Virus record (IMG/VR): IMGVR_UViG_3300024999_000344
Coordinates: 1-26,460 of that record
Length of the DNA: 26,460 nucleotides
DNA from: a virus
Reading direction: 5' to 3' (one strand)
Below, in pieces: positions 9,105 to 26,374 of the stretch (position 1 is its first letter; each line of letters starts with the position of its first letter). A program made the position numbers and the translations under genes. The notes beneath the pieces are model-generated. The model worked only from the letters and a program-made list of their open reading frames with translations. It was not told the DNA's origin and did not search any database.

Positions 9105-12100
9105 TTATCTTAATTCAAAATATCTTTTCAATATCACCTCTCGTTGCTGCTGCAACTGTCCAAGCCTCTCTCGAACATTTGTTGTCTGATCAATCTTTTT
9201 CAACTTATTAATTACTGCCTGGTTTCGATTTAATGCTGATTGAAAATTTTCATGCAACTTCATTTGTTTGAAGCCATCCAGGTTTGAATTCAAGAAAGTT
9301 CTCTTGTCTTCAGAATTTTCAAGCTGCTTCTTGAATACATCCACTTCCTTACTGATCTTACCAAATTCTTGTTCATTGCTACTCTTCTTATAGTCTTCCC
9401 CTCGTCCGTAATGCCAATAATAAAGCTTTCCACCAATCGGGATTGATTCTACAATTCTGGCATGATCATAATCAATTGTATCACCCGTAATATAAGATCC
9501 GTACAATTGGTTAAGATCCTTACTGATGGAATTTACAAATCTGAAAGGAGGTAAAATTTGGCCAATTAATCCAGATCCTAGACCTTCCCGAGCTGTTTGC
9601 ATCCTTACAAACTTTGATGCTCCGCCCATGGTTAGAAAGTTTTCAATCACGTGATCTTCAAACTTTGTTTCTTTTCCCAACATCCAATCCTTCAGTTCAT
9701 CCGCTCCTGCATTAGCAAGTGTAAGCAAACTCACCAGCTTGATCATGTTACCAATTCCTTCAATAACCTGATCCCGTTCTCCAGTCTTAATTTTGTGCCA
9801 AGCTTCATTTCGGAAAACATCAAATTGCTTGAGTGTGTATGTCTTGAGCATATAAAAAACTCGGCCATTTCCACTCTTGAGATATTGCTCTGACATTTCA
9901 GAAAGCGCTACAGGTTGGAAATCCAACAATCTATGATACAACAACATCTTAACGTTGTCTGTAGAATTGTTTGCAAGCAAATCATTTATTACACTTTCCG
10001 ACTGTGTTCCAAAGATAGGCTTGATTTGCTTCAACAATGCTTGGCGTCCATCTTCAGTGCTGGCCATAGCTTTGTAGTTACTAAACGCATTATTGATTAA
10101 AGTCTCCTTGCCTATTGAATCAATACGTTCCAGTCCAACTAGTTTAAATACCTTACTGACTGCATTCCCCAATGTTGTGCCGTCTGCAAACTCTTGTGCG
10201 ATCCTCTCAATTCCGAGGTCTTCCTTAGTTATTTCAGACTTCTTAGTTATGGCCTTACCAACATTCTTAACTGTATCAGCTAGTCCACGTGGTGTCCATA
10301 CTTTGCCAACATACATCGCCCAAGCAAGATCACCAATCTGAGTCAATGCAGATATTGGTGATCCCATAACATCGATGTATGACATATTTTTGTATGCATT
10401 AACTATTCCTGTAGCTCCATGTTCATGAAATCTTGCATCAAGAATATCCCTAACTACTTTTTCATCATCTGCTTGGATTCGTCCACTCAATCGAAGGTCA
10501 TTAATATATGAGCCAATATTCTCAGTGTAATCTCTCTGAAGTTTGTACTTATCCAATTCTTGTTCGATTCTAATCAAGTCACCAGAAACATCATCTATAC
10601 GAGTAGCATTATTGGCTTTTTCGTATTCCGTGAGCATTACCTGCTTTCGTTTCTTTTCAGCTTTTAGGGTTGCTATTCTTTCTGGAACCTTACCAAAGAA
10701 ACGTCTAGCCTCAATTTTCTTCGTCATACTATAGATGTATTGCATCAATGCTGCGTCACTATCCATGTAGAACTTATTCAAAAGTGGTGGAACAGTTTCA
10801 TATTGCCTGGCTTGAATGTTGCCTGGACCACCAAGTCCAAGGTTCCTGCCCAGTATTGTGTTGCTTGCAATATCTGCTGCCTGTTCAGGATATGCAAGCT
10901 CAAACTTTTCAACTGTCATACCCAGTTTGTCTGCATAAACTTTGATTGCATCAGTAATAACTGGTCGTTGAGAAATTCCTTTTGTTGCCTGCAAGAAGCC
11001 TTCTTGATCCTTGATTATTCGAGGCCAGTATTCTTCAATAAAACCTACATCATAACCAACATCAATTGCATCTTGCCTAATTTGATTTAAGACTGCTCGC
11101 AGCTTTTCTTGATCAGCGGTCATGTTGTATTTTTCTGCAAGTTCTTTTATCTTAACCTCGTCTGAGTTACGTCTCGCTGCATCCCAAACAAATTTGTCTT
11201 GCGGACTCATTTGCTTAGTCTTCTCAAGGAGTGGATGAGCAATACGTAATGCGGTTACAATCTTTTGTGAAGTCCGAAAGTCTAGGTTTCTAATCTCTGA
11301 ACGGAGCATAGGATCTACATTCTTAAGCCTGGTTGAAATAGATCCTAATCCTTTGTCGATGAGTTGCTTAATTTCATGTCCACGCATACGAAGCATCTGA
11401 CCGATTGTACGAACCAAACTATTTCGTTCGCTGAACATTTGATGATAAACGTCATCACTAATTTTTTGAGTTAGGGCTTCACGAACCTCGAACATCGGCA
11501 TACCTTCACGTAGTGCCTTAGATTTCATGCGGTTCGTGATTGGAATGCTTAATACATCAAAAGAATATGTTGTTTGATAATTATCTTGAGAATATTTACC
11601 TATTATCTTAGTTGTAGCTACTTTCGCATTTCCCCACTTGTTCTTATTGAACTCTGCATTAAAAGTATTCGGGAGTATCTTATCATAAAACTCTTGCATA
11701 CCATGAAGTCTTTTAGCTTGTTCTTCTTCAGTGCCTTGAGCATAACGATCAAACTGCTGCTGCCCAGTAGTCCATGCAATTTTATCAAAACCATTCTCAG
11801 CAGCATACCTGACCATTCGCTTCATGGCAAGGAGAGACCATTGAGTAGAGTTCTTGAATGGTGCATTGGGAATTGTAGGTAATTTTGGTAATTTTTCTAA
11901 CCTTTCTAATCCTTGTCCATTTAATAATTCGTTACGCTCTCCAGTAGTAATAAATCCTTGATTATATAATTCATTTATATATGGATTATTTTTAATTTCA
12001 TTTTCATAACCACGCTTCTTTCCTTCCTGATGCCAGTCACTCTGCACCTCTTCAAGGAAAAGAACTTTATTTCCATCTGCATCAGTTCGTTCATTGAACC

Positions 12101-15100
12101 TAATATGAGCTAAGACATTCTTTTCATCCCAATGAATTGTTTTATAACCATGAGATTTTCTTATATTAGCAATTTGAAGTTGCTTAATTTCATCAGATGA
12201 TAAATCAGTAAAATCTTTACCAAACATTGTTTGTGCATCTTGATTAAGAGTAGTTGGTTTGTTTGGTAAAGTAAGTAATATTTCTTTGTAATTCTTTCCA
12301 CCGAGAAGTTGATAAGTTGAATGCTTAGCTACTTCTGTTTGCGGATTAATTCCATCATTACGTATTACTTCACTAACTTCATCAGGGATATTTTCTGCCT
12401 CAATAGTTTCACCCGTATAAATATCAACTAAAGACCAATCATCATATTCTTCTTCATAACGATAACCTAAAGGACCCAACTTTTTATTTATTCTATCAGA
12501 AATAATTTGCTCAGATTCTTTAACTACTTCTTCAAGATGAACATTATTTTCCTGAACAAATTTCAACAAAGCTGCCTGACTAACTTTTCCTTCCTGCTTA
12601 TCAAGCCAATCATTCACACCGACCCAATCAAGTTCATCCTGCTTAATTCCAGGAAAGTTCTTAATCATTCCTTTCCACTGATCAGGTGTTGCTTGCTTCT
12701 GATTAAACCCAGTAATCGCATTCTCAAGTGCAGAGTACCACTTATTTGCTACTTCTTCAGCCTGAGAAACAGTAACTTGAACAGTTTGTCCATTAACTTG
12801 ACGCTTATAAATCTTTCCACTTTCTACTTCACGAGCCAATCCTGAAACTGTTTGCTTACCAAAACTTAACAATTGCTGAAAGAAATCCATTACCCTTTGA
12901 ATCACTTTACCAAAAGTAGTGTTTCGATACTCCGCTCTGTTGACCATAATCTGAGCAAACATGTTCGCACGATTTTCAACCATCCTCTGCTTCGGATCTT
13001 TGTGAGTACTCAGAGCAAAATCAAGCTTGCCTGCCTTTCGAAGTTTATTAAACTCCTTATTCAAAGCACTATCATCTGCTTCTGTAATTAATCCCAAGTT
13101 ATCAAGGACATGCTTGTTCTCATGCCAAAGAGTCTTATTGTCTGCAAAGTTTTCATCAAGAAGAATTTCATTCCCAACAGTAATGCCAAAGATACTTTGA
13201 CCTTTGGACATTTGCCCAGTTTCAATTGCTAACTTAATAAAGCCTTCGCCTGCATTTTGTATGCTATTAATCTTTACGCCTTGTCCATTTTTGAACTGAA
13301 CAGATACTGAACCATTTTCATTCTGAGTAATTGTTTGATTTGGAAAAGTCTTTTTAATATCATCAAGATTTACTTTACCTAAGGCTTTTTGATTTTCGTT
13401 TACTTGAAACTGTGGAACACTACCTACTTGCCGTTCATTAGTGAACCTACTCGGCAACCCTCCGGGCAAGTTTCTAGGAACCTCAGGTTCAACTGCCTGC
13501 CTATTTACTGACGGAATATCACCAAGATCTTTAGCAATTTGTTGAAACCATGCCTGGCGTTTATTCTGCTCAGCTAAAGATGGAACAATATTTTGTTTTG
13601 CTTCACTTTGTATCGTAGTATCACTCTTAACATTATTTTCAATTTCATTAAGTTGAGTCTCAAAGAACTTACGCTTCATATAAGCTTCAGTTCCAGGAGT
13701 CATTTTTTCGCGGGCTACTTCTAATTCACCTTTAACTTCTTGCCAATAATTTTCAATAATATTTCTTTCAGCTGGACTAAACTTTTGATTAAGAAAACTA
13801 GTTATTTGATTTTGATAGTCGCTGATTACTCGTAACTTCTCAAGATCTTCTGGATTTGTTGCAACTTCTTGAAGTAAACTTTGTTTTCTTTCATTATCTT
13901 TTGTATTATTTATTTCATTTACATAATCAACAATACTATTATAGCGTTGATTAATCACTCCTTGATCTTTCAATTCATTAAATCTTGCCTGCAGATCATC
14001 AGCATATTGACTGGCATTCTGTAAAATCCTTTCACGCTTAGGATCTACTTGCCTTTCTTGAGTTTTAAGATTAGTTATTTCATTATAATAATCAGTAATA
14101 TCTTTTGCAACTTTTTGGTCTGGCAATGCATTAATAGTTTCTGCAGATTCAGCAGCATCTTTTTCAAAACCTACTTTATCACTTTGATTAATATTAGCAG
14201 TACCAAAAAGCTCTTCAAGATATTTCTGTCTACCATCTCTAGTAGTGTATGGAGCAAAAGCCTTCTTAACCTCAGGCGTTTCTTTATCAAGTAACTCATT
14301 ACGCCTTTTGTTCAGTTGAATAAGGTTATTTTCAATTACTTTTTTTTCTTCTGCACTTGGTGATGTTTTAGCATCTAATGCATAAGGATCAAACTTACGA
14401 TTATATTGCTCAGAGAGAGTTGTAATCTCATTATCAATATTTGTAATTCTTTCATTAAGTTGGCTTGCATCAGCAATTCTCTTCTCAGTTAACTTATTTT
14501 CAATCTCTCTTACTTCCTTCTCTTCAGGAGAAAATGCTTCATATTCTTTCTTAACAAGCTCTTCTTTCTTCTGTATTCCAGAATTAATCCGATCTAGAAG
14601 ACTTTGATTATTTTTATTATCCTCAACAGTCTTTCTAATTAATTCAGCCGGATCAACATTTAGCTCTCTTGCTTTCTGATCAAGTTTATAAGGATCATCA
14701 AGAATTTCTTTATTTAAATTAAGAGTTTCATTTAAAGTTTGAATACTCTTATCAAGTTCATCTTCTTTCAAATTGAGAATATTTGCTGCCTGTCTATCAA
14801 GCTCTAACTCTTGTTCAGTCTTTTCAGCTGGCTTATCTACTCCTGGAAGTAAATTTGCTCCGCCACCCATTACTCCACCAAGAATAATAGCTTGTGCAGC
14901 TCCTTCAGGAACTCCATCAAGCAAAGGCTTATCAAGAGCTGCATTAGTAAATATTGTCTCTTGAACAGTTTGTGGTAATTCTTCAAACACACCTTCAGTT
15001 ATACCACCACCAACAATAGATTTTACAACACCTTTAAACCCTTCTTTCTTAGCAGGATTTAATCCAGAAATTACCATCGTATCTATATCAGCAAAACCAA

Positions 15101-15764
15101 GTTTTTTGGCTAGTGATCCCCCAACTAATCCAAAAGCTGCTGTTCCTAATCCTGAAGCTGCTGCAAGGGCAGATTGTTCAGCAGTCAAAAGATCATCAGG
15201 TGTAGCATTTCTTATTTGCTCTGCAGTTTGGCCAGCAGATATTGCCCCCTCACCAACTGATCCAGCAGCGATAGCAGATCCAGTTTTGCCTAATGCAGTT
15301 ACAACCTTTGGTAATAATTTACTACTAAGAGCTATAGCACCACGACCTAATACACCACCAGCAGCAACGGATGGCAATGTTTCAACAATACCATGAGCAA
15401 TAGTGCTTGGATTTTCTAACATTGCTTGTGCTGTATTAACAAAGCCTTTTGCAGAATCAACCTTTTTATTTGCTTCTTGTTGAGCAAGAGAATATTCTTC
15501 AGAAAGATCTGTCTGCCATTCTTCTGGCTTTATGCCAATATGCTCAAGGCCACGACCAACTCTACCACCAGTTGGAATGTCAGCAAGCCCTACAATTCCT
15601 TGACCTGCACCAATAACACCTTTAGCAAGAGATATTCCAGTGTCTTTTAATGTAGAGCCTAAAGTACGTTCAGGAACAGGAACATTAATTTCTTCTGTAT
15701 CATCAAAAAAACTTTTTGCTACTGGCGAAGTAGTTTCTTCTGTATCATCAAAAAATCCAGCCAT
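9105..15764 (-). CDS. Giant polyvalent-type protein, putative virion/DNA-ejection protein with zincin motif
   Basis: A 2219-aa multidomain protein. In order: tandem FFDDTEE motifs (residues 4-10 and 19-25); a Gly/Ala-rich, weakly hydrophobic region (about 35-310); long charged coiled coils (about 320-770); a zincin-like metallopeptidase motif HENKH (H881, E882, H885), with E930 in VENRAN a plausible third ligand; a helical segment around DELDWVGVNDWL; a conserved block with HIRFNERTDADG, EEVQSDWH and IAWTTGQQQ (about 1215-1320); and a C-terminal part with GSPISALTQIGDLAWAM (about 1797) and a probable membrane helix near 2000-2020. These segments resemble the large polyvalent proteins of phages, thought to be packaged and ejected with DNA. 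It is last in the virion operon and starts after AGGT, 8 bases upstream. Exact domain names are from memory; peptidase activity is inferred. Confidence 0.85.
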   Translation of the reverse strand: MAGFFDDTEETTSPVAKSFFDDTEEINVPVPERTLGSTLKDTGISLAKGVIGAGQGIVGLADIPTGGRVGRGLEHIGIKPEEWQTDLSEEYSLAQQEANKKVDSAKGFVNTAQAMLENPSTIAHGIVETLPSVAAGGVLGRGAIALSSKLLPKVVTALGKTGSAIAAGSVGEGAISAGQTAEQIRNATPDDLLTAEQSALAAASGLGTAAFGLVGGSLAKKLGFADIDTMVISGLNPAKKEGFKGVVKSIVGGGITEGVFEELPQTVQETIFTNAALDKPLLDGVPEGAAQAIILGGVMGGGANLLPGVDKPAEKTEQELELDRQAANILNLKEDELDKSIQTLNETLNLNKEILDDPYKLDQKARELNVDPAELIRKTVEDNKNNQSLLDRINSGIQKKEELVKKEYEAFSPEEKEVREIENKLTEKRIADASQLNERITNIDNEITTLSEQYNRKFDPYALDAKTSPSAEEKKVIENNLIQLNKRRNELLDKETPEVKKAFAPYTTRDGRQKYLEELFGTANINQSDKVGFEKDAAESAETINALPDQKVAKDITDYYNEITNLKTQERQVDPKRERILQNASQYADDLQARFNELKDQGVINQRYNSIVDYVNEINNTKDNERKQSLLQEVATNPEDLEKLRVISDYQNQITSFLNQKFSPAERNIIENYWQEVKGELEVAREKMTPGTEAYMKRKFFETQLNEIENNVKSDTTIQSEAKQNIVPSLAEQNKRQAWFQQIAKDLGDIPSVNRQAVEPEVPRNLPGGLPSRFTNERQVGSVPQFQVNENQKALGKVNLDDIKKTFPNQTITQNENGSVSVQFKNGQGVKINSIQNAGEGFIKLAIETGQMSKGQSIFGITVGNEILLDENFADNKTLWHENKHVLDNLGLITEADDSALNKEFNKLRKAGKLDFALSTHKDPKQRMVENRANMFAQIMVNRAEYRNTTFGKVIQRVMDFFQQLLSFGKQTVSGLAREVESGKIYKRQVNGQTVQVTVSQAEEVANKWYSALENAITGFNQKQATPDQWKGMIKNFPGIKQDELDWVGVNDWLDKQEGKVSQAALLKFVQENNVHLEEVVKESEQIISDRINKKLGPLGYRYEEEYDDWSLVDIYTGETIEAENIPDEVSEVIRNDGINPQTEVAKHSTYQLLGGKNYKEILLTLPNKPTTLNQDAQTMFGKDFTDLSSDEIKQLQIANIRKSHGYKTIHWDEKNVLAHIRFNERTDADGNKVLFLEEVQSDWHQEGKKRGYENEIKNNPYINELYNQGFITTGERNELLNGQGLERLEKLPKLPTIPNAPFKNSTQWSLLAMKRMVRYAAENGFDKIAWTTGQQQFDRYAQGTEEEQAKRLHGMQEFYDKILPNTFNAEFNKNKWGNAKVATTKIIGKYSQDNYQTTYSFDVLSIPITNRMKSKALREGMPMFEVREALTQKISDDVYHQMFSERNSLVRTIGQMLRMRGHEIKQLIDKGLGSISTRLKNVDPMLRSEIRNLDFRTSQKIVTALRIAHPLLEKTKQMSPQDKFVWDAARRNSDEVKIKELAEKYNMTADQEKLRAVLNQIRQDAIDVGYDVGFIEEYWPRIIKDQEGFLQATKGISQRPVITDAIKVYADKLGMTVEKFELAYPEQAADIASNTILGRNLGLGGPGNIQARQYETVPPLLNKFYMDSDAALMQYIYSMTKKIEARRFFGKVPERIATLKAEKKRKQVMLTEYEKANNATRIDDVSGDLIRIEQELDKYKLQRDYTENIGSYINDLRLSGRIQADDEKVVRDILDARFHEHGATGIVNAYKNMSYIDVMGSPISALTQIGDLAWAMYVGKVWTPRGLADTVKNVGKAITKKSEITKEDLGIERIAQEFADGTTLGNAVSKVFKLVGLERIDSIGKETLINNAFSNYKAMASTEDGRQALLKQIKPIFGTQSESVINDLLANNSTDNVKMLLYHRLLDFQPVALSEMSEQYLKSGNGRVFYMLKTYTLKQFDVFRNEAWHKIKTGERDQVIEGIGNMIKLVSLLTLANAGADELKDWMLGKETKFEDHVIENFLTMGGASKFVRMQTAREGLGSGLIGQILPPFRFVNSISKDLNQLYGSYITGDTIDYDHARIVESIPIGGKLYYWHYGRGEDYKKSSNEQEFGKISKEVDVFKKQLENSEDKRTFLNSNLDGFKQMKLHENFQSALNRNQAVINKLKKIDQTTNVRERLGQLQQQREVILKRYFELR
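15689..15710 (-). repeat. 22-bp direct repeat, copy 2 (encodes FFDDTEE)
   Basis: Identical over 22 bases to 15734-15755, with starts 45 bases (15 codons) apart and in the same frame. Each copy encodes the FFDDTEE peptide near the N-terminus of the 2219-aa protein. Confidence 0.85.
15734..15755 (-). repeat. 22-bp direct repeat, copy 1 (encodes FFDDTEE)
   Basis: First copy in reading order of the perfect in-frame repeat also found at 15689-15710. Near-perfect DNA identity suggests a recent duplication or selection for the peptide. Confidence 0.85.
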
Positions 15765-15788
15765 TTTATTTACCTATAGTTTAATTTA

Positions 15789-16865
15789 TTAATACGGAAG
15801 GTTTCCAAATCTCATTTTATATTCAGCTTCAGCGGCAGCAAAATTAGGATCTTTAGATGCACGCATTTTTAATAGCTTTTCTGTAGTAGCTGGCTTTGGA
15901 GTTGTAACTGTTGGCTGACCTGACATGCCATCAACATAGCCAGTACCCTCTGCATTAGGAATCATAATTCTTTGTCTTTTACTTGCTCCAATAGGATCAT
16001 TTGGATCAGGTTCTTCAATGACCATAGGCTTCAATGCCGTTTCTTTAACTAGCGGTTGCTGTGCTACTTGCCCTTGAATATCACGTAACTTATTTTCTGC
16101 AATAACACCCATTTCATCTATACGATTTTTTTCTTTATCAATAGCACTTCTAGATGCTATTTCAGCTAAATTATTCTTTTCTGATTGTTGATTAGTTAAT
16201 TCTTGTAGCATAAGATCTTTATGTGTTCTCCATCCCATAGGAGGTGGTGGAGAATTGTCAATCTTAGTAACACCAAAATTCTGTCCTCGAGGAGTGTTCA
16301 TATACTTTTCATACTGAGCCATCTGACCAGTCGGAGCAACAGGATTTTCTAAGAATCTTTTTCTTGCCTCAGGTGATACACTGGAATCAAATGATACATT
16401 CATATTGCCAACTCGTTGAATACCATTTGGATTTATTCTTTCTAAATTAGTTTTAGTTTGGTTATTTTTATTTCCTTCAAATGAAAGAGTATTTCCACCA
16501 ATATCATAAGTGGTTGTATTTCCATTAGTTGCTACAGTCATTTTGCCTAACTCTTCATCTCTTTGTGAATTAGGAATTTCATTAATCTTAGGGCTTTCAA
16601 TATTTACTGATGGTAACATATTTCTTTCAACTACTCTAGTTCCTTGCCCTATTCTATCAGGACGAGAATTAATGTTTCTTAACGGATTACTTCCACCATA
16701 GAATGATTCATTCATCGGATCACCTGGCATCATTGGTGCTTGTTTCTTTACGGGTACAGAAGCATTCCAGGCTTCTCCTGTAAATGCATCATCTGTAGTA
16801 GGAAGAAGAGCCAACTTTCTTTTTTTCTTTTCTTCTTCAGATACTGTTTGAAAATCATTAAGCAT
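15789..16865 (-). CDS. Low-complexity virion-associated hypothetical protein
   Basis: A 358-aa protein rich in Asn, Pro, Lys and Glu, probably largely disordered: a charged N-terminus (SEEEKKKRK), a Pro-rich SPPPPMGW near the middle, a helical segment around 225-270 and a conserved-looking end (DPNFAAAEAEYKMRF). The first ATG (16871) overlaps the previous stop as ATGA, but AAGGAG lies only one base before it. The ATG at 16865 has ideal spacing of 7, so I use it. It lies directly upstream of the giant polyvalent protein and may be its partner or another internal virion protein. No recognised family. Confidence 0.75.
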   Translation of the reverse strand: MLNDFQTVSEEEKKKRKLALLPTTDDAFTGEAWNASVPVKKQAPMMPGDPMNESFYGGSNPLRNINSRPDRIGQGTRVVERNMLPSVNIESPKINEIPNSQRDEELGKMTVATNGNTTTYDIGGNTLSFEGNKNNQTKTNLERINPNGIQRVGNMNVSFDSSVSPEARKRFLENPVAPTGQMAQYEKYMNTPRGQNFGVTKIDNSPPPPMGWRTHKDLMLQELTNQQSEKNNLAEIASRSAIDKEKNRIDEMGVIAENKLRDIQGQVAQQPLVKETALKPMVIEEPDPNDPIGASKRQRIMIPNAEGTGYVDGMSGQPTVTTPKPATTEKLLKMRASKDPNFAAAEAEYKMRFGNLPY

Positions 16866-16867
16866 GC

Positions 16868-18757
16868 TCATTCTCCTTGAGTGTAAATTGTTTTCTTAAT
16901 AATTTTATTTGTTTGCGTCCAGAGTGGTGAATCATAATCTCCTTCACTTGGCGTAGAAATAGTTGCTATCACAGTAGTTGTATTGACTGTAACATCATCG
17001 TGCCAAGTAAACTCGTAACCTGGTGTTCCTTCACCTTCACCAGAATCTTGATGTACTGGAATATTTGCTTGGTCATCATAGATTGTCAAAGCAGGATTGG
17101 TAAATACTAACCCCATGTGATTCCCAAGAAATCCTCCGCTACCAGGAAGCTTCGCTGTGAGTGGTGACTTATCAGCAATAATCGAACCTGCAAAATAAAT
17201 ATCAGAATTTACTGTTCTAATTGCTCTTGGAATAACTCCTGTATTTCCTGCAACTTGTGATTGTGTAAGTTCAAGGGCCATGTGTCTTTTCCAGAGTACA
17301 TCTCCTGCTTGTGGTGCTAATGGATTAACAGAGTCAGACTTTTGAAACTTAATTATATATGCACCCCATCCATCAGTTCCATTAGGGAAACTAGGAAAAA
17401 TAATATACACTCCATCAAAAGAAACATCTAGTTGAGTAACACAAAGAATCGCATCTGCATCATCGTAATATTGTACCTCTGCAAATCTCTGCCATTGCAA
17501 TGCTCCAGCAGAGGATACTTTGGAAAGATGAAAGTGCCACCAACCACTATCAGTAGCAATTTCAATCTTTGTCATTGAAACACAGTAAATATCTCCATTA
17601 CTATCAATGGCACATCCTCTGATATTCAGTCCGCTCATACTGGTGCCAACACCATACCAACCATAAAGTCCATTCGCTTGCAAGAACCTGCCTTCAAGAA
17701 CTCGATGCCACTGAACAACTCCACTACTATTAAGTTTAGTCAAGAGTCCCATTGGATGAATCGAGCTAGTTGTAGGCTCTTGAATGCTTCCACCGATGAT
17801 GATGTCTCCTGTAGACTTGACAGCAACATCATATGGATTAACCATATTTTGTACAGTTGGCTCACCAAACTCATCAAGCAAACAATCACCAAGTTGTAGA
17901 GTCCAACCTAGCGTTCCATCATATTGCAAGAAAGCAACATAAGCAGCATTATAAATTAAAACATAACTTTCATTATAGGCATCATGTCTACCTATGACTA
18001 CTGCATTACCAGCAGCATCAGCATCAACACCCCAACTGAATAAGTCATCAATGCCAGTATCGCCAAGAGAAAATCGTTTCTTCCACTTAATCGTTACACC
18101 ATCATTAGCATATTTAATCAAGCTCATATCGTAGCAGTTGTCATCACGCAACTTATAAATATCTGCTGTGACATAAACTCCACCATAATCAGTATCAAGT
18201 TCGGTTGGAACTGTAGGATCAATTGCAACTCCAGTACCAGATTCATTCCGATTTACTTCACTTAACAGGCCACCTTCTAATACTCTACGACGTTGAAACC
18301 ATCCATCATTATTATAATATTGAACGTATGCTTCATTTGATAATTCTGACGAAGCATCTGCATAATCTCTTGTTCGAGTGTATCCAACTACAATTACGTT
18401 GCCCATCGAATCAACATCAATATCTGATAAGCCACCACCTGAGATAAGAGTCTGTATAGTATCTGTAGATACTGCTAAGGCATACCAGTACCATTCATAC
18501 CTCTCTTCGATTGGTAAGTGTTTGCCAAGTTTCTTCCTAACTAATGGTGTGACATGAACCCTCGCTTCATCAAACCCAAATACTGAGCGTGCTTCAATAG
18601 TTACCCCTGGGGCAACAGGAACAAAACGCCTGCCTTGCTTAAGTCCTAATCGAGACATATCATCTTTCAGCATACCGACTTGAACTCTGGCCTGTTTGGC
18701 GAAATGCCGGCCGGCAAAGGTATCGCCAGTATATGTCACTTTGATCGGGACTCTCAT
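16868..18757 (-). CDS. Propeller-repeat virion protein with N-terminal domain
   Basis: A 629-aa protein. Residues about 1-95 form a separate, more GC-rich, basic domain (KVTYTGDTFAGRHFAKQARV, VRKKLGKHLPIEER). Residues about 105-560 carry repeated beta-propeller blade signatures: DIDVDSMGNVIVVGYT, AVKSTGDIIIGGS, AIDSNGDIYCVS and similar, spaced roughly 55-80 residues, resembling SBBP-type or quinoprotein-like propellers. The C-terminal segment is Thr-rich. The layout suggests an attachment domain followed by a surface propeller, so a tail or adsorption role is likely but not shown. It couples by ATGA to the gene before it and is followed by an overlapping stop/start. Confidence 0.78.
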   Translation of the reverse strand: MRVPIKVTYTGDTFAGRHFAKQARVQVGMLKDDMSRLGLKQGRRFVPVAPGVTIEARSVFGFDEARVHVTPLVRKKLGKHLPIEERYEWYWYALAVSTDTIQTLISGGGLSDIDVDSMGNVIVVGYTRTRDYADASSELSNEAYVQYYNNDGWFQRRRVLEGGLLSEVNRNESGTGVAIDPTVPTELDTDYGGVYVTADIYKLRDDNCYDMSLIKYANDGVTIKWKKRFSLGDTGIDDLFSWGVDADAAGNAVVIGRHDAYNESYVLIYNAAYVAFLQYDGTLGWTLQLGDCLLDEFGEPTVQNMVNPYDVAVKSTGDIIIGGSIQEPTTSSIHPMGLLTKLNSSGVVQWHRVLEGRFLQANGLYGWYGVGTSMSGLNIRGCAIDSNGDIYCVSMTKIEIATDSGWWHFHLSKVSSAGALQWQRFAEVQYYDDADAILCVTQLDVSFDGVYIIFPSFPNGTDGWGAYIIKFQKSDSVNPLAPQAGDVLWKRHMALELTQSQVAGNTGVIPRAIRTVNSDIYFAGSIIADKSPLTAKLPGSGGFLGNHMGLVFTNPALTIYDDQANIPVHQDSGEGEGTPGYEFTWHDDVTVNTTTVIATISTPSEGDYDSPLWTQTNKIIKKTIYTQGE

Positions 18758-20205
18758 GCCGTCGGGTCGTGGGTAAATTCGTGTGACTCGGAAATACTAG
18801 AGCCGAAGGAATGAGACTCGCTGATCGATTCACTATGCCCATAGCTCTCCGACCTGTTTTCTGATCCAGAGTATCCAAGCGAGGCTGAGGCGTTGACGGC
18901 ATTCAGCGCTGAAGCGACAGACTGTGCAGCGATCTGTGCCATATCATTGCTTACTTTCTCTTTGAGTGAAGATTCGGCTACATAGGCCCGTATTGCTGCG
19001 TCGACCTTACCAAGCAGTAGGCGCAATTCAATGTCCGCCTTTTCAATCTTCGCTTTGTTGTCTTCAACCAGGGCCATCTGACTTGCAGTCAGTGCTTTAG
19101 TTTCAGCTTCGTATCCGGTAATCTCTGCGTCAAAGCCTTTGATAATTGCATCATTAATACTAGCTTTAGCTTCAACGCCAACTTTGAATGCTTCTATCTG
19201 AGATTTGTATACATCATTAAGGCCCTTGTTACTCTCGATTGCGCCACGCAGAACTTCAACTTGTGCTTGGATATATGCTTTCTTTGCTTCAAGAGTAGCT
19301 ACATAACCTTTGACACTTTCTGAATACAACTGAATAACAATTTCAGCGGAAATCTTAGAATAATAAAGTGATCTCTGCGATTCACTATCTCTAGTAGTCC
19401 GGATTAACTTCTCCAATTCTGTTGCTTGCTGGATGATAAACTGAGCATTTTTCTGAACCAAATCGGCGCGTTCAATCATTACCTTTTCAGTAACATCCGT
19501 TTCGTTCCTAGCAATCTCAGCAGATGCCTCAAGAAGCTTTCCTTCAAGAGCACCCTGTGGTTCATCCCATCCGCGAACTGAGAAGTAACTCTCGACATCG
19601 TTATACAGCTTGCTATTAGTAGTCAGGTTTCTTGCAATAGCGCGATCATAAAGCGCCTGCTCTACTAACGGATCAAGTCCGGTCGAATCATCTGCCATCG
19701 TAGCAAGAATCTTCGCTAACAATGGAGTATAAACAGAAGTAGCAAGTGCAGTCTCAGACCATGTGACACTTGCATCAGGAGCAACTGGAGCAGTACCTGG
19801 AGTTAATAAAGTTGTATCTATAGTTGGCATTGCTGCCATTGTTGGAGCTACTTCAGAAAATGTACCAAAGTCGGTAATTAATGATGCAAGTCCAGTTGGC
19901 AATGGACGGTCAGGAATAGTTACAGCGGTTGTAGAAAGAGTAATAGAAAGTGGATCAAGAACTGGCTCAGCATAAGTAGTAATTAAAGAGTTAAGTGTTC
20001 CAAGATAACCACTCGCCCCGTCAAGTCCGACCAATCGCACCATCATGTCGTCAGCTATCTGCATGGTTGCGTCGAACTTCTCAGTGACTATGGTATAAGG
20101 CCCAGTAGGCGAAACAGTAGGCCAAGGTTCATGGACTTCGTTTATACCATCAGTGACTGGCGTTTCTGGTATTATGACTCCTGCGGATGATACAAAATCT
20201 GCCAT
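18754..20205 (-). CDS. Conserved helical virion protein with Ser/Glu/His-rich C-terminus
   Basis: A 483-aa structural protein. A Pro/Thr-rich N-terminal part (to about 165) is followed by a long helical body (about 175-440), including a VRGWDEPQGALEGKLLEA region and AQFIIQQATELEKLI. It resembles tail-associated helical proteins I recall from other phages, with the R-G-x-x-x-P-x-G-A-L pattern, though no family name is certain. The last ~35 residues are built of short Ser-Glu-Ser/His repeats (SESYGHSESISESHSFGSS). AGGAGAG lies 5 bases before the ATG. A tail or baseplate role is inferred from position. Confidence 0.75.
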   Translation of the reverse strand: MADFVSSAGVIIPETPVTDGINEVHEPWPTVSPTGPYTIVTEKFDATMQIADDMMVRLVGLDGASGYLGTLNSLITTYAEPVLDPLSITLSTTAVTIPDRPLPTGLASLITDFGTFSEVAPTMAAMPTIDTTLLTPGTAPVAPDASVTWSETALATSVYTPLLAKILATMADDSTGLDPLVEQALYDRAIARNLTTNSKLYNDVESYFSVRGWDEPQGALEGKLLEASAEIARNETDVTEKVMIERADLVQKNAQFIIQQATELEKLIRTTRDSESQRSLYYSKISAEIVIQLYSESVKGYVATLEAKKAYIQAQVEVLRGAIESNKGLNDVYKSQIEAFKVGVEAKASINDAIIKGFDAEITGYEAETKALTASQMALVEDNKAKIEKADIELRLLLGKVDAAIRAYVAESSLKEKVSNDMAQIAAQSVASALNAVNASASLGYSGSENRSESYGHSESISESHSFGSSISESHEFTHDPTA

Positions 20206-20214
20206 AACTCTCTC

Positions 20215-21600
20215 CTATGAAATTCCACTTGATTTAATAATTGGTAATACTGCATTTGTATCTATTGAGAAGTCACTTCCAAGAACATTAGATATCTTAG
20301 GTGTCCAATATCTTCCATACAAATTTCTCCCTATTGGTGTTCTAACAACTTGGTGTACATTTCTTGGAGGTGAAATTCTAAATGATTTAGTATTTATCGT
20401 TTTACCTTCTGCTGTCAAGTCAAGTTGTATTTTGCCATCAGTTTTTACTCCCATGTACCAGAAACGAAGATGTTTGTTATTCTGAGAGCCTAAATCAGTA
20501 GTTGGTAAGGTAAATGTAGAAGCAATTAAAGTAGTGTTATCAGTGCTGCCACTGGTAATCTGGAACAATCCATCACTCTTTGCACCATACAATCCACCAT
20601 TAAAATTAACCATCGAGTTAAATCCATAGTTCCGATACTTACTAGATGCAGTTCCAATTAAATTAGTTCTAATACAAACTGAATCATCAATTGTATTGAT
20701 AACTGTACTTCCATTAAAGACTGTTGCACCTCTAGTTCCGGCTTGATAATTAAGTTTATCCTTAGTAACTACAATCAACTGGCCTTGTGGAGTGCCAATA
20801 CACAGTCCATCATTACATGACCATGCCGCGCATTCTCCTGTATCTGGTGAAAGTCCAAATTTCTCACCATCTATATAACCGATAGCCTCAGAGTATTCAT
20901 GTGCTGGACATTCAAGACGCGGATGACGAATAAGTTCTCTAATATTTGATCCTTCAAGAAAATAAGTTCTCTTGCTATCTGACGCCCATATCCCACCATC
21001 AACGGGCTTAAACATCTTCACATTACTAGCAAATCTTAATCGCGATCTAGCATTATCAAATAAACCATATCCAAGTGGTTCAGAATAATTAACAATTGCC
21101 CCATTAACTACACACATACTAGAAGAAAACAAAGCAAGATGAGTGCCAAGTGGAGGTGTTCCGAATGTCTTAGTTGTCGAAGGTCCTACATAAGTTTGTG
21201 CTGCCCATGGATAAGATACGCCTGAAGTAATATAGCCACTCTGCAATCCGTTACTATAATAAGTTCCAAGACTAGTCTGACACCATCCCATTCTGAGATT
21301 CTTGGTCAACCCTGAACGAACACCAACAAGAACATTATTTGTACCAACTTTATAAATGGCTGCATCACTTACAGTCTCAAGAATAACGAAGCAATCTCCA
21401 CCATCACAAAAGATAGAATGATATTCTCCAACCGCAATCAGACCTTGTCCTAACCTTCTGGATATTCTCCCATTATCATCTATATCTACATCAAGAGCTT
21501 CTGCCAGTTCGACGATGCCAGTCTCAAAGTCAATCTTAAGTCTGGTTGGATCAGCAATATTGTTCCAGCCAGTAGTACCGGAAAATAGTTTTATAGTCAT
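20215..21600 (-). CDS. Conserved propeller-type phage virion protein
   Basis: A 461-aa protein of a family common in phage structural operons. Visible landmarks are ALDVDIDDNGRISRRLGQG (about 35-53), YHSIFCDGGDCFVI, a YSEPLGYGLFDNAR segment (about 171-184) and VDGGIWASDSKRTYFLEG (about 200-217). Regularly spaced blades suggest a beta-propeller. Several Cys pairs occur (FCDGGDC, ECAAWSCNDGLC). It overlaps the Ig-like gene by 4 bases (ATGA). It is likely a tail, neck or adsorption component; the exact place in the virion is unknown. Confidence 0.78.
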   Translation of the reverse strand: MTIKLFSGTTGWNNIADPTRLKIDFETGIVELAEALDVDIDDNGRISRRLGQGLIAVGEYHSIFCDGGDCFVILETVSDAAIYKVGTNNVLVGVRSGLTKNLRMGWCQTSLGTYYSNGLQSGYITSGVSYPWAAQTYVGPSTTKTFGTPPLGTHLALFSSSMCVVNGAIVNYSEPLGYGLFDNARSRLRFASNVKMFKPVDGGIWASDSKRTYFLEGSNIRELIRHPRLECPAHEYSEAIGYIDGEKFGLSPDTGECAAWSCNDGLCIGTPQGQLIVVTKDKLNYQAGTRGATVFNGSTVINTIDDSVCIRTNLIGTASSKYRNYGFNSMVNFNGGLYGAKSDGLFQITSGSTDNTTLIASTFTLPTTDLGSQNNKHLRFWYMGVKTDGKIQLDLTAEGKTINTKSFRISPPRNVHQVVRTPIGRNLYGRYWTPKISNVLGSDFSIDTNAVLPIIKSSGIS

Positions 21601-21938
21601 TTCGTATTATCCTGAACTATATCAAATTTTGCTTTTTGAACCGTTCTTACATCCGTTCCACTAGTTAACTGAATATCGTAAAAATAATTTCCAATCGCCG
21701 CAGTATTCACTGAGGTAGGTTTAAATACTACTAGCCCAGTTGTTGGGTCTGCATCAATAGTGCCCGTCATATCAAACAGTTTAGTAGTAGCATCAGGTGG
21801 GTCTTTAATCGTTGTAACAGTCATCTTCAAAGTCGCACCACTAAGAGATACAGGAAGAGTTGTATCACTGTCAGTAATGGTAAAAGTAAGGTCATATGAA
21901 TCCCCTCTATACATCCTGATATCGTTTTCATTTGCCAT
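21597..21938 (-). CDS. Ig-like phage structural protein (BppU N-terminal-like)
   Basis: A 113-aa single-domain beta-sandwich protein. RGDSYDLTFTITD, VSLSGATLKMTV, and NYFYDIQLTSG with TVQKAKFDIVQD are typical of the small Ig-like domains found as stand-alone proteins or as the N-terminus of BppU-type baseplate proteins. The start MANENDIRMYRGD at 21938 is chosen because GGGAG lies 8 bases upstream and one base separates it from the fibre gene's stop. A longer in-frame ATG at 21995 would lie inside that gene. It probably acts as a small adaptor between tail parts. Confidence 0.82.
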   Translation of the reverse strand: MANENDIRMYRGDSYDLTFTITDSDTTLPVSLSGATLKMTVTTIKDPPDATTKLFDMTGTIDADPTTGLVVFKPTSVNTAAIGNYFYDIQLTSGTDVRTVQKAKFDIVQDNTK

Positions 21939-21939
21939 A

Positions 21940-24900
21940 TCATTCTCCCTTTGTTGCGATGTATGTAAATAGGCTGAGAGTCGCAACAACTGCACCAGCC
22001 GCTATAGCCTCTATTTCAGGTGTATCATGAACAGCTGTAATTTCACCCTGACTGAAAATTGCTTCTATATCATTATCTTGCAACGTCCCCATAATTGTCT
22101 CACTATTAAAGATTGCTTCTATTGTCGGAACAAACAGAGTAGCAGTATATGATGTTTCTCCATAAGTGACATTCATCTCAGGGAAATAGCATTCAACTCT
22201 GATAGCTGAATAACCGTCAAGAATCGTGAACAACTCTATTCTTGCAGCGTTCATGATTGCAGTATTCGTCAGTGCGTCATCGACAAATGATGTCTCAACC
22301 GTGAACCCCCAACTAACCATTATTGTAGTCGAGTCATCATCTATCTCCATGCTCTCAGCAATTACACTTGACGCAGCATTGTAAGCTGAAACAATCTCTT
22401 CAATGGTTGCTATATCTGCAAGAGAAACATAAAGTCCTCGCCATGCAATAACCTCTTCACTGGGAATTAATGTATCAATCACTGAAGAATCAGCTGTCTT
22501 ATGACTATTCTGTGTTGCCCTAATTATAGCCCATGCGTAACCTGTACCATAAACATATCGACTAGCTATTTGATCGGCAGCAATTGTTAAACTATCTGTA
22601 ACTGCTCCACCATAAGATTGTGCTCCAACTTGTACTTCAGCAATTGTAGCACTATCAGTCCTATCTGCTTCTTCTGTAGCAGATGAAACTCCATTATGTG
22701 ATTCAGTTGCTGCCAGAGAATCAGTTCTATCTGCTTCTTCAGTATAAAAACTCGTATTGGTTAGAGTATCAGATGGAGTGAGTGATCCAGCTTCTGCCGT
22801 TGCTGGTGATGCAATCCAACCCTCAAGTTTTACCTTAAGAACTAGAGCCATCATATAGATGTAATCCTGCGTTGCGCCATCTGCAGTAGTAGCAACAATA
22901 CTACTTGCACCCCAAGGAATTGCACCTACTGTTGTTCTGATCGACCATCCATAAGAACTATTATATGCTCCACCACTAATCAAGTTTGGCTGCCTACCTA
23001 CATCACACCTAACTTCACCATATACTCCGCCACCCATACCATATTCAATACCAACTATCATATCTCCTTCATTATATGAAATATCAGAAAGAGTAAGTGA
23101 AGAAGCATTAGTTACACCTTCTGGAGATATGATACTGCGAAAAGGATCTCCTGAAATATCAACATTAGTAAACTGGCAAATTTTAATGATATCAGCATAT
23201 GCTTCGACTCCACCAAAGTTCGGATTGGGAAAATTCCAAGCGATATTACCAGATTCTGGATTCTTAAAATATGCTACCATCACATTATACCCGGCAGCAT
23301 TAGTATTGGCAAGATGTACAAATGGTACACCACCCAATGTTAATGTATAGTTTCCTTCCTGAATCCATGCCGGATTGTAGAATAGTGTGTGATAAGCAAA
23401 AAGCAATAAATTAGTATTAGCATGAATAGTGACTGCGCGACCACCACTAGTTGTATTAGCATAATCATGAATCTGATAGGATCGACTATCAGAGAACATT
23501 ATCTCTGTTGGGATATCTACATAAGGTCCATTAATCTGGCTTACAGGTAGAGAATCAGCAGCACCTCTATCAATGGTAACAGTTGATTCTATACTATCAC
23601 TACATACTGATCCTTCACCTACTCCACGATCAAATCCTTCATTTGTAGCAAAGCTATCTTCTTCATCAGTTATCTCTGATATTTCAGTTATCTCAGCTCC
23701 AGAAGGAACAGCTTCTCCGTCAAGGACTGTATTTATAACTACTGTATCTTCTAAGTCTACGCTTTCAGCATTGTTAGAACTTCCCGCCTCAGCTACTGCA
23801 AGAGTTTCTGTGATTGCTGAATGCATATACTGAGTCTGGTCTTGTCCAATACTTGCATCTGATATGCTGCCGATTGATTCTGTTTGTGCCACCCTGTGCA
23901 GTTCTCCGACTGATTTTCGCAAAGAAAAGGAGAGGTACCCGGCGAAAACAAGATCGTCGAAATAAAATCGGTCGGCAGCATCAGCAACGTAGTCACCGAT
24001 CATCGTAATAACATAGTTAGGATACGACCCGTCACCATGTACAACTCTGACCATTTGGTTGTTAACGTCTATTGTAGCTACGGGCGTTCCTGGAAGTGTA
24101 GCGGCAGCACCGACAGTCAAGCCTCCTTCCTCATCCACGACAACAAGGTTTCTGTCCGTAAGCGTCAGGGTCGTGGTACACCCTGACCTGTAATACAATC
24201 CGTTACTTGGCTGATACACTAATGGGTCGGTTTGATGAACGTTCGCGTAAAAGACCAGACTGAAAGAATGCGTATCAGATATAGGGTAGAATGACCACCC
24301 GAAAAGTTGCTCTCCAAGCGGTGGAGCTGGCAGCAGATAGGCCGCAACATCACATATATATCTGTTGTCGCCAACCAACTCGTCGAGTTCCTGGCTCCTT
24401 GCCCCGAGAGTGAAGGTTTGTCCTCCGAGCCAATACTCGCCCATGAGGAAATGATCATCTTCTGTTTCCGAGTCCACATTCGATTGCCTCGACCCATGAA
24501 ACAAAATACAAAAGTCAGCACCTTCAGGTACGGTAACAAGTTCTGTCCCAGCTCTCCCCTGGTTTAGGACTGTGCCATTGTCTTTGAATGACAAGGTCAC
24601 AACCCCGACAACCGTAACCTTCTTGTATGGTATACACTCTTCAGTCGCTGATACTGTTTCAGTCTGCGAGGCAGTTGTGGGAATTACCCCGACAGTTGTC
24701 TCGCTGACTGCTACTGTTTCTGCCTGTGCTGCTTCAATAGGTGCTCCACCACCACCACCAATGATATCACTTATTGCTGAAGATTCTGACTGTGACACTC
24801 CAAAAGTAGTCGGTGGAGCCAGAGCAATAGTGATAAATGCAGCTGTAGTAGTTGCTGTACTAGTAACAGAAGTTACACCAGTATCTCCTGCAACTATTTT

Positions 24901-25467
24901 ACTACCAGTATAAAGTCCTAATCCACCACCAGCTCCAGCATTTACTGTCTCATCTGCGCGTTTAGTCAGACTAGCAAGATTAGCATTAGATGAAGCAGTA
25001 AGTGATGTGGTAGAATTAGCATCACGATCCTGACCAAGACAGAGCAAGATAAGACAATTCGAAATAGTAGTAGTTACCGCAGGACATGACCAGGATGTAG
25101 AGGCAGGGGTATTGACACTTCCAGCTGTAATATTAATTGGACCTGCATTATCTATCCCCCTGAATAGAAACATCTGACCCGTAGTAACGCTGCCAGAATC
25201 TGGCACTGAAACAGCTGACTGTGATCCTGATACTAACTTCCAGAAGGCAGCAAGTCTAATTCCACCAGCTGAACCAGCCGTACCAGTACCTTGAGGACTA
25301 TTTGTTACTTCAGTCCAACCTCCAGGCGTAGAGATAGTCTCATTTGCTGAAGAAACAAGCAGGACAAGAATATCTTCATCAGCATAACCAGTTGGCACCG
25401 GAACAGATAATGCTCCAGTACCAGCTGTAAATACACCTTGATTGACGTATGTTGGAACTGCACCCAC
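21940..25467 (-). CDS. Modular fibre-like virion protein with acidic Ser/Thr repeats (GTG start)
   Basis: A 1175-aa protein starting at GTG 25467, with AAGGA 6 bases upstream overlapping the previous stop. Residues 1-220 form a beta-sandwich domain (SVPVPTGYADEDILVLLV, TPGGWTEV, FLFRGIDN). Degenerate ~20-residue repeats of the type SQSESSAISD and AQAETVAVSE follow (221-280), then a second globular domain (283-525), more repeats (525-650), a third domain (about 655-880), repeats including EEADRTDS twice (about 895-935), and a C-terminal part. DNA at about 23,880-24,640, encoding the second domain, is visibly more GC-rich than its flanks. The modular layout suggests a tail fibre or receptor-binding surface protein; the receptor is unknown. 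No intramolecular chaperone is recognised. Confidence 0.75.
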   Translation of the reverse strand: MGAVPTYVNQGVFTAGTGALSVPVPTGYADEDILVLLVSSANETISTPGGWTEVTNSPQGTGTAGSAGGIRLAAFWKLVSGSQSAVSVPDSGSVTTGQMFLFRGIDNAGPINITAGSVNTPASTSWSCPAVTTTISNCLILLCLGQDRDANSTTSLTASSNANLASLTKRADETVNAGAGGGLGLYTGSKIVAGDTGVTSVTSTATTTAAFITIALAPPTTFGVSQSESSAISDIIGGGGGAPIEAAQAETVAVSETTVGVIPTTASQTETVSATEECIPYKKVTVVGVVTLSFKDNGTVLNQGRAGTELVTVPEGADFCILFHGSRQSNVDSETEDDHFLMGEYWLGGQTFTLGARSQELDELVGDNRYICDVAAYLLPAPPLGEQLFGWSFYPISDTHSFSLVFYANVHQTDPLVYQPSNGLYYRSGCTTTLTLTDRNLVVVDEEGGLTVGAAATLPGTPVATIDVNNQMVRVVHGDGSYPNYVITMIGDYVADAADRFYFDDLVFAGYLSFSLRKSVGELHRVAQTESIGSISDASIGQDQTQYMHSAITETLAVAEAGSSNNAESVDLEDTVVINTVLDGEAVPSGAEITEISEITDEEDSFATNEGFDRGVGEGSVCSDSIESTVTIDRGAADSLPVSQINGPYVDIPTEIMFSDSRSYQIHDYANTTSGGRAVTIHANTNLLLFAYHTLFYNPAWIQEGNYTLTLGGVPFVHLANTNAAGYNVMVAYFKNPESGNIAWNFPNPNFGGVEAYADIIKICQFTNVDISGDPFRSIISPEGVTNASSLTLSDISYNEGDMIVGIEYGMGGGVYGEVRCDVGRQPNLISGGAYNSSYGWSIRTTVGAIPWGASSIVATTADGATQDYIYMMALVLKVKLEGWIASPATAEAGSLTPSDTLTNTSFYTEEADRTDSLAATESHNGVSSATEEADRTDSATIAEVQVGAQSYGGAVTDSLTIAADQIASRYVYGTGYAWAIIRATQNSHKTADSSVIDTLIPSEEVIAWRGLYVSLADIATIEEIVSAYNAASSVIAESMEIDDDSTTIMVSWGFTVETSFVDDALTNTAIMNAARIELFTILDGYSAIRVECYFPEMNVTYGETSYTATLFVPTIEAIFNSETIMGTLQDNDIEAIFSQGEITAVHDTPEIEAIAAGAVVATLSLFTYIATKGE
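22654..22740 (-). repeat. Imperfect direct repeat encoding EEADRTDS twice
   Basis: Bases 22654-22674 and 22720-22740 match at 20 of 21 positions, with starts 66 bases (22 codons) apart and in frame. They are the clearest DNA-level remnant of the repeat unit in the fibre-like protein. Confidence 0.75.
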
Positions 25468-25475
25468 ATTAATCC

Positions 25476-26180
25476 TTAAGTCAAGGTTGCAGTATAACTA
25501 ACATTCAACGTATCACCGTTGGCAAGAACTTTGTCGCCGCCAGTAAATAATCCAGCAGAAAATAAAGTACCAGTAGTGCCTGACTTGGTGGCTACAGAAT
25601 TAAGGAAGCACCCCTTTATTGTAGTTCCATCACCATTAATTGAGAAAACACATGCTGCAGAAAGAGCTTTACTCCCAGCTGCTGCTGCGCTCCATGCCGT
25701 GGTTGGCCTAGCTGCCTGGGAATATTCAACATCCTCAGCCCAACCACCATGAGAGGCCATAGTATCAGTAACAGCTGCACCAGTTGTATATGAAGTCGAT
25801 CCGATCAGACCAATATACCAAGCAGCAGTATAGGCTGATCCAGCAAGATACTTATCAAGCATATCATTCTTGCCGGCCGTAGTAACAAGATTGGCGAAAT
25901 CCTCAGTCCACTTCACTTCCATAGGAATTGTAGCAAATTCAGACAGCAGCTTTGCAATGTTTGCCTTCTGCAAGAATCGTCGAACTTTACTCATCTGCTT
26001 AAATGCAAGAATCCTGTCACGAAGTAAAACATACTGTGAACGAAATTCTTCAACCGGTCCAATACACTCGATGCCATACCGACCAATAGCTTTAGACTGC
26101 TCTATTGACTCAACACCTCTGCCAACGCTTGCACCTTGATCTGAGAGGCCATGTGAAAATTCAGCTCTGCTCTCTTCCAT
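25476..26180 (-). CDS. Conserved phage virion protein (234 aa)
   Basis: A 234-aa protein. The N-terminal ~90 residues are helical (SQYVLLRDRILAFKQMSKV). From about residue 105 there is a conserved pattern: LAGSAYTAAWYIGLIG, DTMASHGGWAE, ARPTTAW, FSINGDG, SGTTGTLFSAGLF and GDTLNVSYTATL. This pattern recurs in small beta-rich proteins of phage structural operons, although I cannot assign a precise virion position. The ATG at 26180 is preferred over the GTG at 26183 because an extended Shine-Dalgarno GAGGTGAT gives a spacing of 7 bases from GAGG. The fibre gene follows after 8 bases. Confidence 0.78.
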   Translation of the reverse strand: MEESRAEFSHGLSDQGASVGRGVESIEQSKAIGRYGIECIGPVEEFRSQYVLLRDRILAFKQMSKVRRFLQKANIAKLLSEFATIPMEVKWTEDFANLVTTAGKNDMLDKYLAGSAYTAAWYIGLIGSTSYTTGAAVTDTMASHGGWAEDVEYSQAARPTTAWSAAAAGSKALSAACVFSINGDGTTIKGCFLNSVATKSGTTGTLFSAGLFTGGDKVLANGDTLNVSYTATLT

Positions 26181-26374
26181 CACATCACCTCTTCCAAATC
26201 AGATTCCAGAAACCATCGACGATGAGTTTCAACCACTCCATCATTATTAACATCCGTAGTCCATTCAAGACAATGCTCAAGACATCTTTCCTTCTTATTG
26301 TACTGCACATCAACTACAACTCCTTCAACAGTCGGTTGTTTCAACCTTGCTCTTTTTCCTTCTTCCAATGCCAT
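26180..26374 (-). CDS. Small hypothetical protein (64 aa)
   Basis: A 64-aa charged protein (KRARLKQPTVEGVVVDVQYNK, then HRRWFLESDLEEV). The strand pattern suggests a small SH3-like barrel. AGGAG lies 6 bases before the ATG, and its TGA overlaps the start of the next gene (TGATG), so translation is coupled. Its place at the head of the visible virion operon suggests a minor structural or assembly role; no family is recognised. Confidence 0.68.
   Translation of the reverse strand: MALEEGKRARLKQPTVEGVVVDVQYNKKERCLEHCLEWTTDVNNDGVVETHRRWFLESDLEEVM

Follow-up and report, generated by a model that had tools for sequence, protein, structure and literature searches.

A giant, probably virion-borne polyvalent protein of the F116/N4 type with a conserved zincin signature and an exchangeable middle domain

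The Giant Gene and Its Setting

The window, an entire IMG/VR record of 26,460 bases (IMGVR_UViG_3300024999_000344), is a fragment from an uncultured virus of bacteria. A single uninterrupted ORF on its minus strand, running from 15764 to 9105, encodes a 2219-aa product (Table 1); a plus-strand reading of 9105–15764 is ruled out, as stops occur throughout. This giant gene closes a leftward virion block (26183..9105) that includes a head-closure-like protein, as the preliminary description had claimed in placing the product at the end of the virion operon. Rightward replication genes (a UDG–DNA polymerase A fusion, plus ThyX) meet the virion block at the end of the giant gene. In the fusion (1524–4046, plus strand), a uracil-DNA-glycosylase domain is joined N-terminally to the family A polymerase. 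A 132-aa protein encoded amid the virion genes (21597–21995, minus strand) matches BppU_N, a baseplate upper protein domain.

Three genes of the virion block, encoding 235, 461, and 483 aa, match gp55, gp54 (and gp57), and gp58, respectively, of Pseudomonas phage H66, where a similar block also has its giant gene (gp60) at the end. Counterparts exist for gp55, gp54, gp58, and gp60 and are missing for gp56 and gp59. The F116-type arrangement, in which a shared N-domain closes a collinear structural block, is therefore present here with partial collinearity.

Sequence evidence supports a chain that begins with a duplicated-peptide leader and an N-domain, continues through a variable linker to a zincin and a slot for payload domains, and finishes in a large helical C-module; it equally supports the N-domain homology, the intact zincin residues, and the exchange at the slot described below. 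Among relatives, the N-domain, zincin, payload domain, and C-module are separable by exchange. A profile search for domains, as proposed at the outset, matched the N-domain to PHROG 30335 and gave no Pfam or NCBIfam match for the whole protein; the PDB likewise gave none for the whole protein by sequence, and the Pfam search found no recognized polyvalent domain in the window protein itself.

Table 1. Features of the giant protein and of the adjoining virion genes, with window coordinates
Feature	Residues	Position	Strand	Basis
Complete gene, 2219-aa polyvalent virion protein		9105..15764	-	ORF
Leader with duplicated peptide FFDDTEE	4-10 and 19-25	15690..15755	-	Shuffling p = 0.0025
N-domain, Gly/Ala-rich, GxxxG-rich	33-330	14775..15668	-	PHROG 30335, E 5.5e-50
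Variable charged, Gln/Asn-rich linker	331-785	13410..14774	-	
Zincin domain (fold predicted)	787-1003	12756..13406	-	Alignment, AlphaFold2 model, dN/dS 0.08-0.20
HENKH	881-885	13110..13124	-	Motif
E930, putative third zinc ligand	930	12975..12977	-	29/29 homologs
Exchangeable payload slot, undescribed domain here	about 991-1413	11526..12794	-	Precise in-frame absence in close relatives; ART-PolyVal elsewhere
ALREGMPMF, C-terminal signature of payload domain	1417-1425	11490..11516	-	Scar where domain missing
All-helical C-terminal module	1432-2219	9108..11471	-	Alignments, AlphaFold2, dN/dS 0.05-0.08
360-aa gene directly upstream of giant gene, without assigned function		15789..16871	-	Relative in most related loci examined
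483-aa virion gene, homolog of H66 gp58		18754..20205	-	Sequence match
461-aa head-closure (Hc3)-like protein, resembling H66 gp54 and, in its second half, gp57		20215..21600	-	
235-aa virion-block protein, homolog of H66 gp55		25476..26183	-	

Leader, N-Domain, and Linker

The two FFDDTEE copies lie within the first 25 residues, 15 residues apart, and the p-value given for them in Table 1 is the lowest attainable in that shuffling test. An internal duplication at p ≤ 0.01 was found in 27 of 59 nonredundant N-termini of giant proteins, as against one of 150 N-termini of other ORFs and two of 60 internal segments in the same test. The leader sequence varies among phages (DEFDKMFG, NPFDQFD, SPYKQF, FDDIFG) while the copies within one protein agree, and a duplicated aromatic-acidic leader is also seen in relatives such as L147, L136, L156, L212, L241, L242, and L244. 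In the cultured phages H66, 8P, USP_25, and phiC725A, KPWEEF or KPWESF occurs twice, at a spacing of 16 to 24; no duplicated leader of this kind was found at the Shewanella Y11 N-terminus. Relatives whose N-domain is 90% identical carry different leaders, and a comparison of leader type with upstream genes gave no clear pattern. The duplicated leader may be a loading tag for phage heads; that it acts as a bivalent docking or loading signal is our guess. A light literature search found no description of it.

The N-terminal region is Gly-rich, as had been described: residues 1–310 contain 14.8% Gly, 12.6% Ala, and 8 GxxxG motifs. The N-domain is 40% identical (E 9e-42) to that of H66 gp60, whose record notes that it was "verified by mass spectrometry as part of the virion." It is also homologous to the N-terminus of a Y7 DarB-like protein and to that of the N4-type virion RNA polymerase (vRNAP) of Acinetobacter phage XC38 (gp14; 70.9 bits, compared with 29.3 bits for the best of 200 locally shuffled copies); the N-terminus of N4's own polymerase has no detectable relation to it. 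These homologies and the position of the gene lend good support to the earlier proposal that the protein is packaged and delivered with the DNA. The giant protein is probably packed in the phage head and injected with the genome, packaging of the window protein itself being what we infer from H66 gp60 and from gene position. In five loci (L003, L011, L026, L023, and L036) a second, much diverged N-domain type (~21% identical) sits on otherwise similar proteins.

Two other elements of the preliminary description fared less well. Residues 311–785 are charged and Gln/Asn-rich, and a simple Fourier test detected no significant heptad periodicity in them, so that the long coiled coils are unproven rather than excluded. 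The membrane-like C-terminus is contradicted by residues 1431–2219, which have a GRAVY of −0.49 and no hydrophobic window; the sole borderline hydrophobic segment of the protein (200–218) falls within the N-domain.

The Zincin

HENKH comprises H881, E882, and H885, and E930 comes 45 residues after the last of these. Every one of the 29 homologs of the domain, down to ~21%–24% identity, has all four residues, counting one (L222) that is truly HExxxH and aligns only with a gap, while the interior of the motif varies (HENKH, HEKKH, HESMH, HENLH). The earlier reading of HENKH with a downstream Glu as in zinc peptidases is thereby confirmed, and the catalytic signature is solid at the level of sequence. 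Among 64 nonredundant giant proteins sharing at least one module with the window protein there are 54 HExxH motifs, compared with 2.9 expected from shuffles, which excludes a chance HExxH.

An AlphaFold2 model built with 43 sequences predicts strands followed by separate HExxH and E930 helices, with a pLDDT of roughly 90 and one extra helix between the two. By giving HExxH and the distal Glu a helix each, the predicted fold counters in a weak form the possibility that HENKH lies in a plain helix. Sequence searches with the zincin found no match in Pfam, the PDB, or 50,697 sequenced phage records, and a fold search with the joint zincin-payload model returned no zincin among the matches listed. 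The invariant residues and the model together are consistent with a domain that would bind zinc and act as a peptidase. In one relative (L023:9773-15553), HEGRH at residue 842 lies upstream of the zincin within a ParB-like stretch and, judged by that context, is not a zincin motif.

The Payload Slot

Among close relatives whose C-modules are ~95% identical, residues 991–1413 are either present or cleanly absent, in frame, and their loss leaves the zincin and C-module adjacent. Relatives without the payload domain retain ALREGMPMF, which suggests that the domain was lost rather than never present. The idea that GMPMF marks a cleavage site recurring between domains of different kinds was rejected; it is the payload domain's own C-terminal end. 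In five relatives (L013, L156, L167, L194, and L203), an ADP-ribosyltransferase (ART-PolyVal) stands between the zincin and the C-module.

Alignments of relatives show that the conserved polyvalent blocks previously noted (residues 1145–1425) are real. They belong to a payload domain that is undescribed and widespread: it occurs in about 76 viral loci, as counted by two short patterns alone, and in few sequenced phages, as well as in LPD23-type proteins on Pseudomonas plasmids. The domain (window 11490–12749, minus strand) is common to giant proteins of cyanophage Dfl-JY45, which has two copies, and of a Pelagibacter phage. It has no Pfam model and no sequence match in the PDB. Its many invariant polar residues, E1239, Q1241, and D1243 among them, suggest that it is an enzyme. 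A GNAT-like-fold acetyltransferase is a possible identity for it (about residues 1145–1425), though we hold this a doubtful one. GNATs are already known in polyvalent proteins, several of the top PDB fold matches are GNATs (spermidine/spermine acetyltransferase), N-acetyltransferases appear among the weak viral matches, and by eye the predicted succession of strands and helices, in which a strand carries the invariant E1239, resembles that of a GNAT. The fold matches are weak, however (E 0.04 and above, with none in the PDB below 0.001, and very low TM-scores), and when its profile was compared with six E. coli GNATs the probability was 0.3%, a level that decoys reached as well.

The C-Module and Its Partners

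The C-module is nearly confined to uncultured phages. A fold search found no relatives of it, a sequence comparison with the PDB found no match, and, as for the zincin, there was none in the sequenced phage records. A prophage search for the host found it on just three distant metagenome-assembled-genome contigs (two Omnitrophota, one Brevinema), too few to name a host.

HExxH is present in 45 of 54 C-module–bearing ORFs of at least 1400 aa, a set that includes near-identical copies, and it is always N-terminal to the C-module. Five of the other nine hold an upstream HExxxH, and four have neither motif; a RadC (JAB) domain is found in one of these four, L051. Relatives without the window-type zincin mostly hold another HExxH or HExxxH ahead of the same C-module, and in L224, L071, and L072 (L224 and L072 being the contigs of L044 and L052), which lack that zincin, the payload is separated from the C-module by an unrelated domain with HELTH or HEITH. 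The L051 protein (L051:5381-11872), from a contig of presumed phage origin, joins the same C-module to ddrB-ParB and RadC domains.

In comparisons with seven relatives, dN/dS was 0.05–0.08 for the C-module and 0.08–0.20 for the zincin, versus 0.32–0.55 for the payload (1145–1425) and 0.23–0.64 for the linker; these values are rough, coming from a simple counting method and, for the payload, an uneven alignment. Purifying selection is strongest on the zincin and C-module, a conserved pair to which the payload does not belong.

Comparison with Known Systems

The protein resembles the polyvalent proteins described by Iyer et al. 2017 (PMC5512222) in its very long chain of disparate domains, in its virion gene neighborhood, and in an HEXXH followed by a conserved Glu, as in the zincin-like MPTases of that class, where this Glu is in the next conserved helix and not, as in the model here, beyond one extra helix; relatives sharing its C-module carry the ART-PolyVal, ddrB-ParB, RadC, and LPD23 domains of that class. 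Unlike those described there, it has a zincin, a payload domain, and a C-module for which Pfam offers no matching model. With the F116-like giant protein of Hollowayvirus (H66 gp60, phiC725A_54) it shares the N-domain at the identity given above, a duplicated leader, and the last place in a similar structural block, whereas the rest of the H66 gp60 chain (3787 aa in all) is unrelated by sequence and has other motifs, HELQH and HEMVH.

The N4 vRNAP consists, in order, of a membrane-associated N-domain, the RNA polymerase, a C1 domain with HExxH, and a large helical C2 domain without structural relatives (PMC12633501). The window protein is like N4-type vRNAPs (N4 gp50, XC38 gp14) in having an N-domain, a payload, an HExxH domain, and a large helical C-terminal region, the last also without fold relatives, but its slot sits between the zincin and the C-module. 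Pfam detected no RNA polymerase domain in it, and the match to the XC38 vRNAP is confined to the N-domain. Homology of the C-module to N4 C2 was considered and rejected as not detectable. Phage P1 DdrB, which we compared by description only, is a further head-packaged polyvalent protein with an MPTase and has been reported to be processed before packaging (PMC5512222).

Discussion

The giant protein is an F116/N4-type virion polyvalent protein. The explanation that we consider best, and to which we give about even credence, is that it is a virion-packaged ejection protein of an uncultured, F116-like, short-tailed phage and that its zincin cuts its own chain in cis. On this account, the protein would be loaded into the head and leave it with the DNA, the N-domain would help it to cross or dock at the envelope, and the zincin would cut the chain close to its own position, allowing the payload and the C-module to separate, whether in the maturing head or once the protein had entered the cell. 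That zincins process the polyvalent proteins in which they occur has been proposed before (Iyer et al. 2017; PMC5512222). The preliminary description had suggested a peptidase acting on host proteins or on its own chain. The putative peptidase site gains from the invariant pairs of His and Glu on separate predicted helices; of the two targets, the protein's own chain seems to us the more probable, since the evolution of the zincin follows that of the conserved C-module rather than that of the rapidly changing payload. The main argument against cleavage in cis is the N4 vRNAP, which has its HExxH domain beside a helical C-domain and reportedly enters the head uncut (PMC5512222). We found no cleavage site in the window protein, and no product of it is known. 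The slow evolution of the zincin is also compatible with a structural role, or with an effector directed at an invariant host protein.

The first of these would have the zincin fold retained chiefly for its architecture: comparably to C1 of the N4 vRNAP, it would serve the C-terminal half in packaging or docking, with any peptidase activity secondary. The C1 (HExxH) and helical C2 pair of N4 (PMC12633501) offers a precedent, its C-terminal region being reported as required for encapsidation of a protein that is packaged whole (PMC5512222), and when 169 fragments are ranked against the window zincin, the N4 HExxH region comes out among the highest and in register, albeit with only 13% probability. 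A mere scaffold, however, would not need all four catalytic and metal positions to be invariant, and zincins of unrelated sequence replace one another, so that we think this reading improbable. We think it unlikely, too, that the zincin is one payload among several, an effector that cuts host proteins after injection. Zincins do serve as effectors in other conflict systems (PMC5512222), the giant protein very probably enters the host, and neighboring slots in relatives carry predicted host-modifying ADP-ribosyltransferases; yet the zincin evolves slowly with the C-module, unlike the payload, and the stretch ahead of the C-module hardly ever lacks an HExxH or HExxxH domain, although the type of this domain changes, which better fits a job within the protein. 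These two observations are also why we favor a self-serving zincin. That the protein is absent from the virion and HENKH a chance motif in a helix is very improbable: the HENKH helix is a predicted one and virion status comes from homology, but the excess of HExxH over expectation, the invariance that extends to E930, and the homology and gene order shared with a virion protein verified by mass spectrometry all stand against it.

In a further reading, which we think doubtful, short-tailed phages of the F116 and N4 kinds would share a general delivery chassis made up of a two-copy loading-tag leader, a membrane-active N-domain, a zincin, and a helical C-module, with a fixed slot beside the zincin for swapped effectors that the zincin would free; the leader would then be a phage-specific code whose duplication is kept. 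The duplicated leader might more generally direct the loading of proteins into phage heads.

With its well-conserved zincin site and its swappable middle domain, the giant protein adds a variant to an already described class of injected phage proteins. In the sources consulted, the evidence for zincin self-processing consists of one processed protein, P1 DdrB, set against an N4 vRNAP that is packaged whole. The present family amounts to a natural experiment, with a near-identical chassis occurring with and without its payload and bearing one zincin or another at an equivalent point, and it thereby makes the self-processing proposal directly testable.
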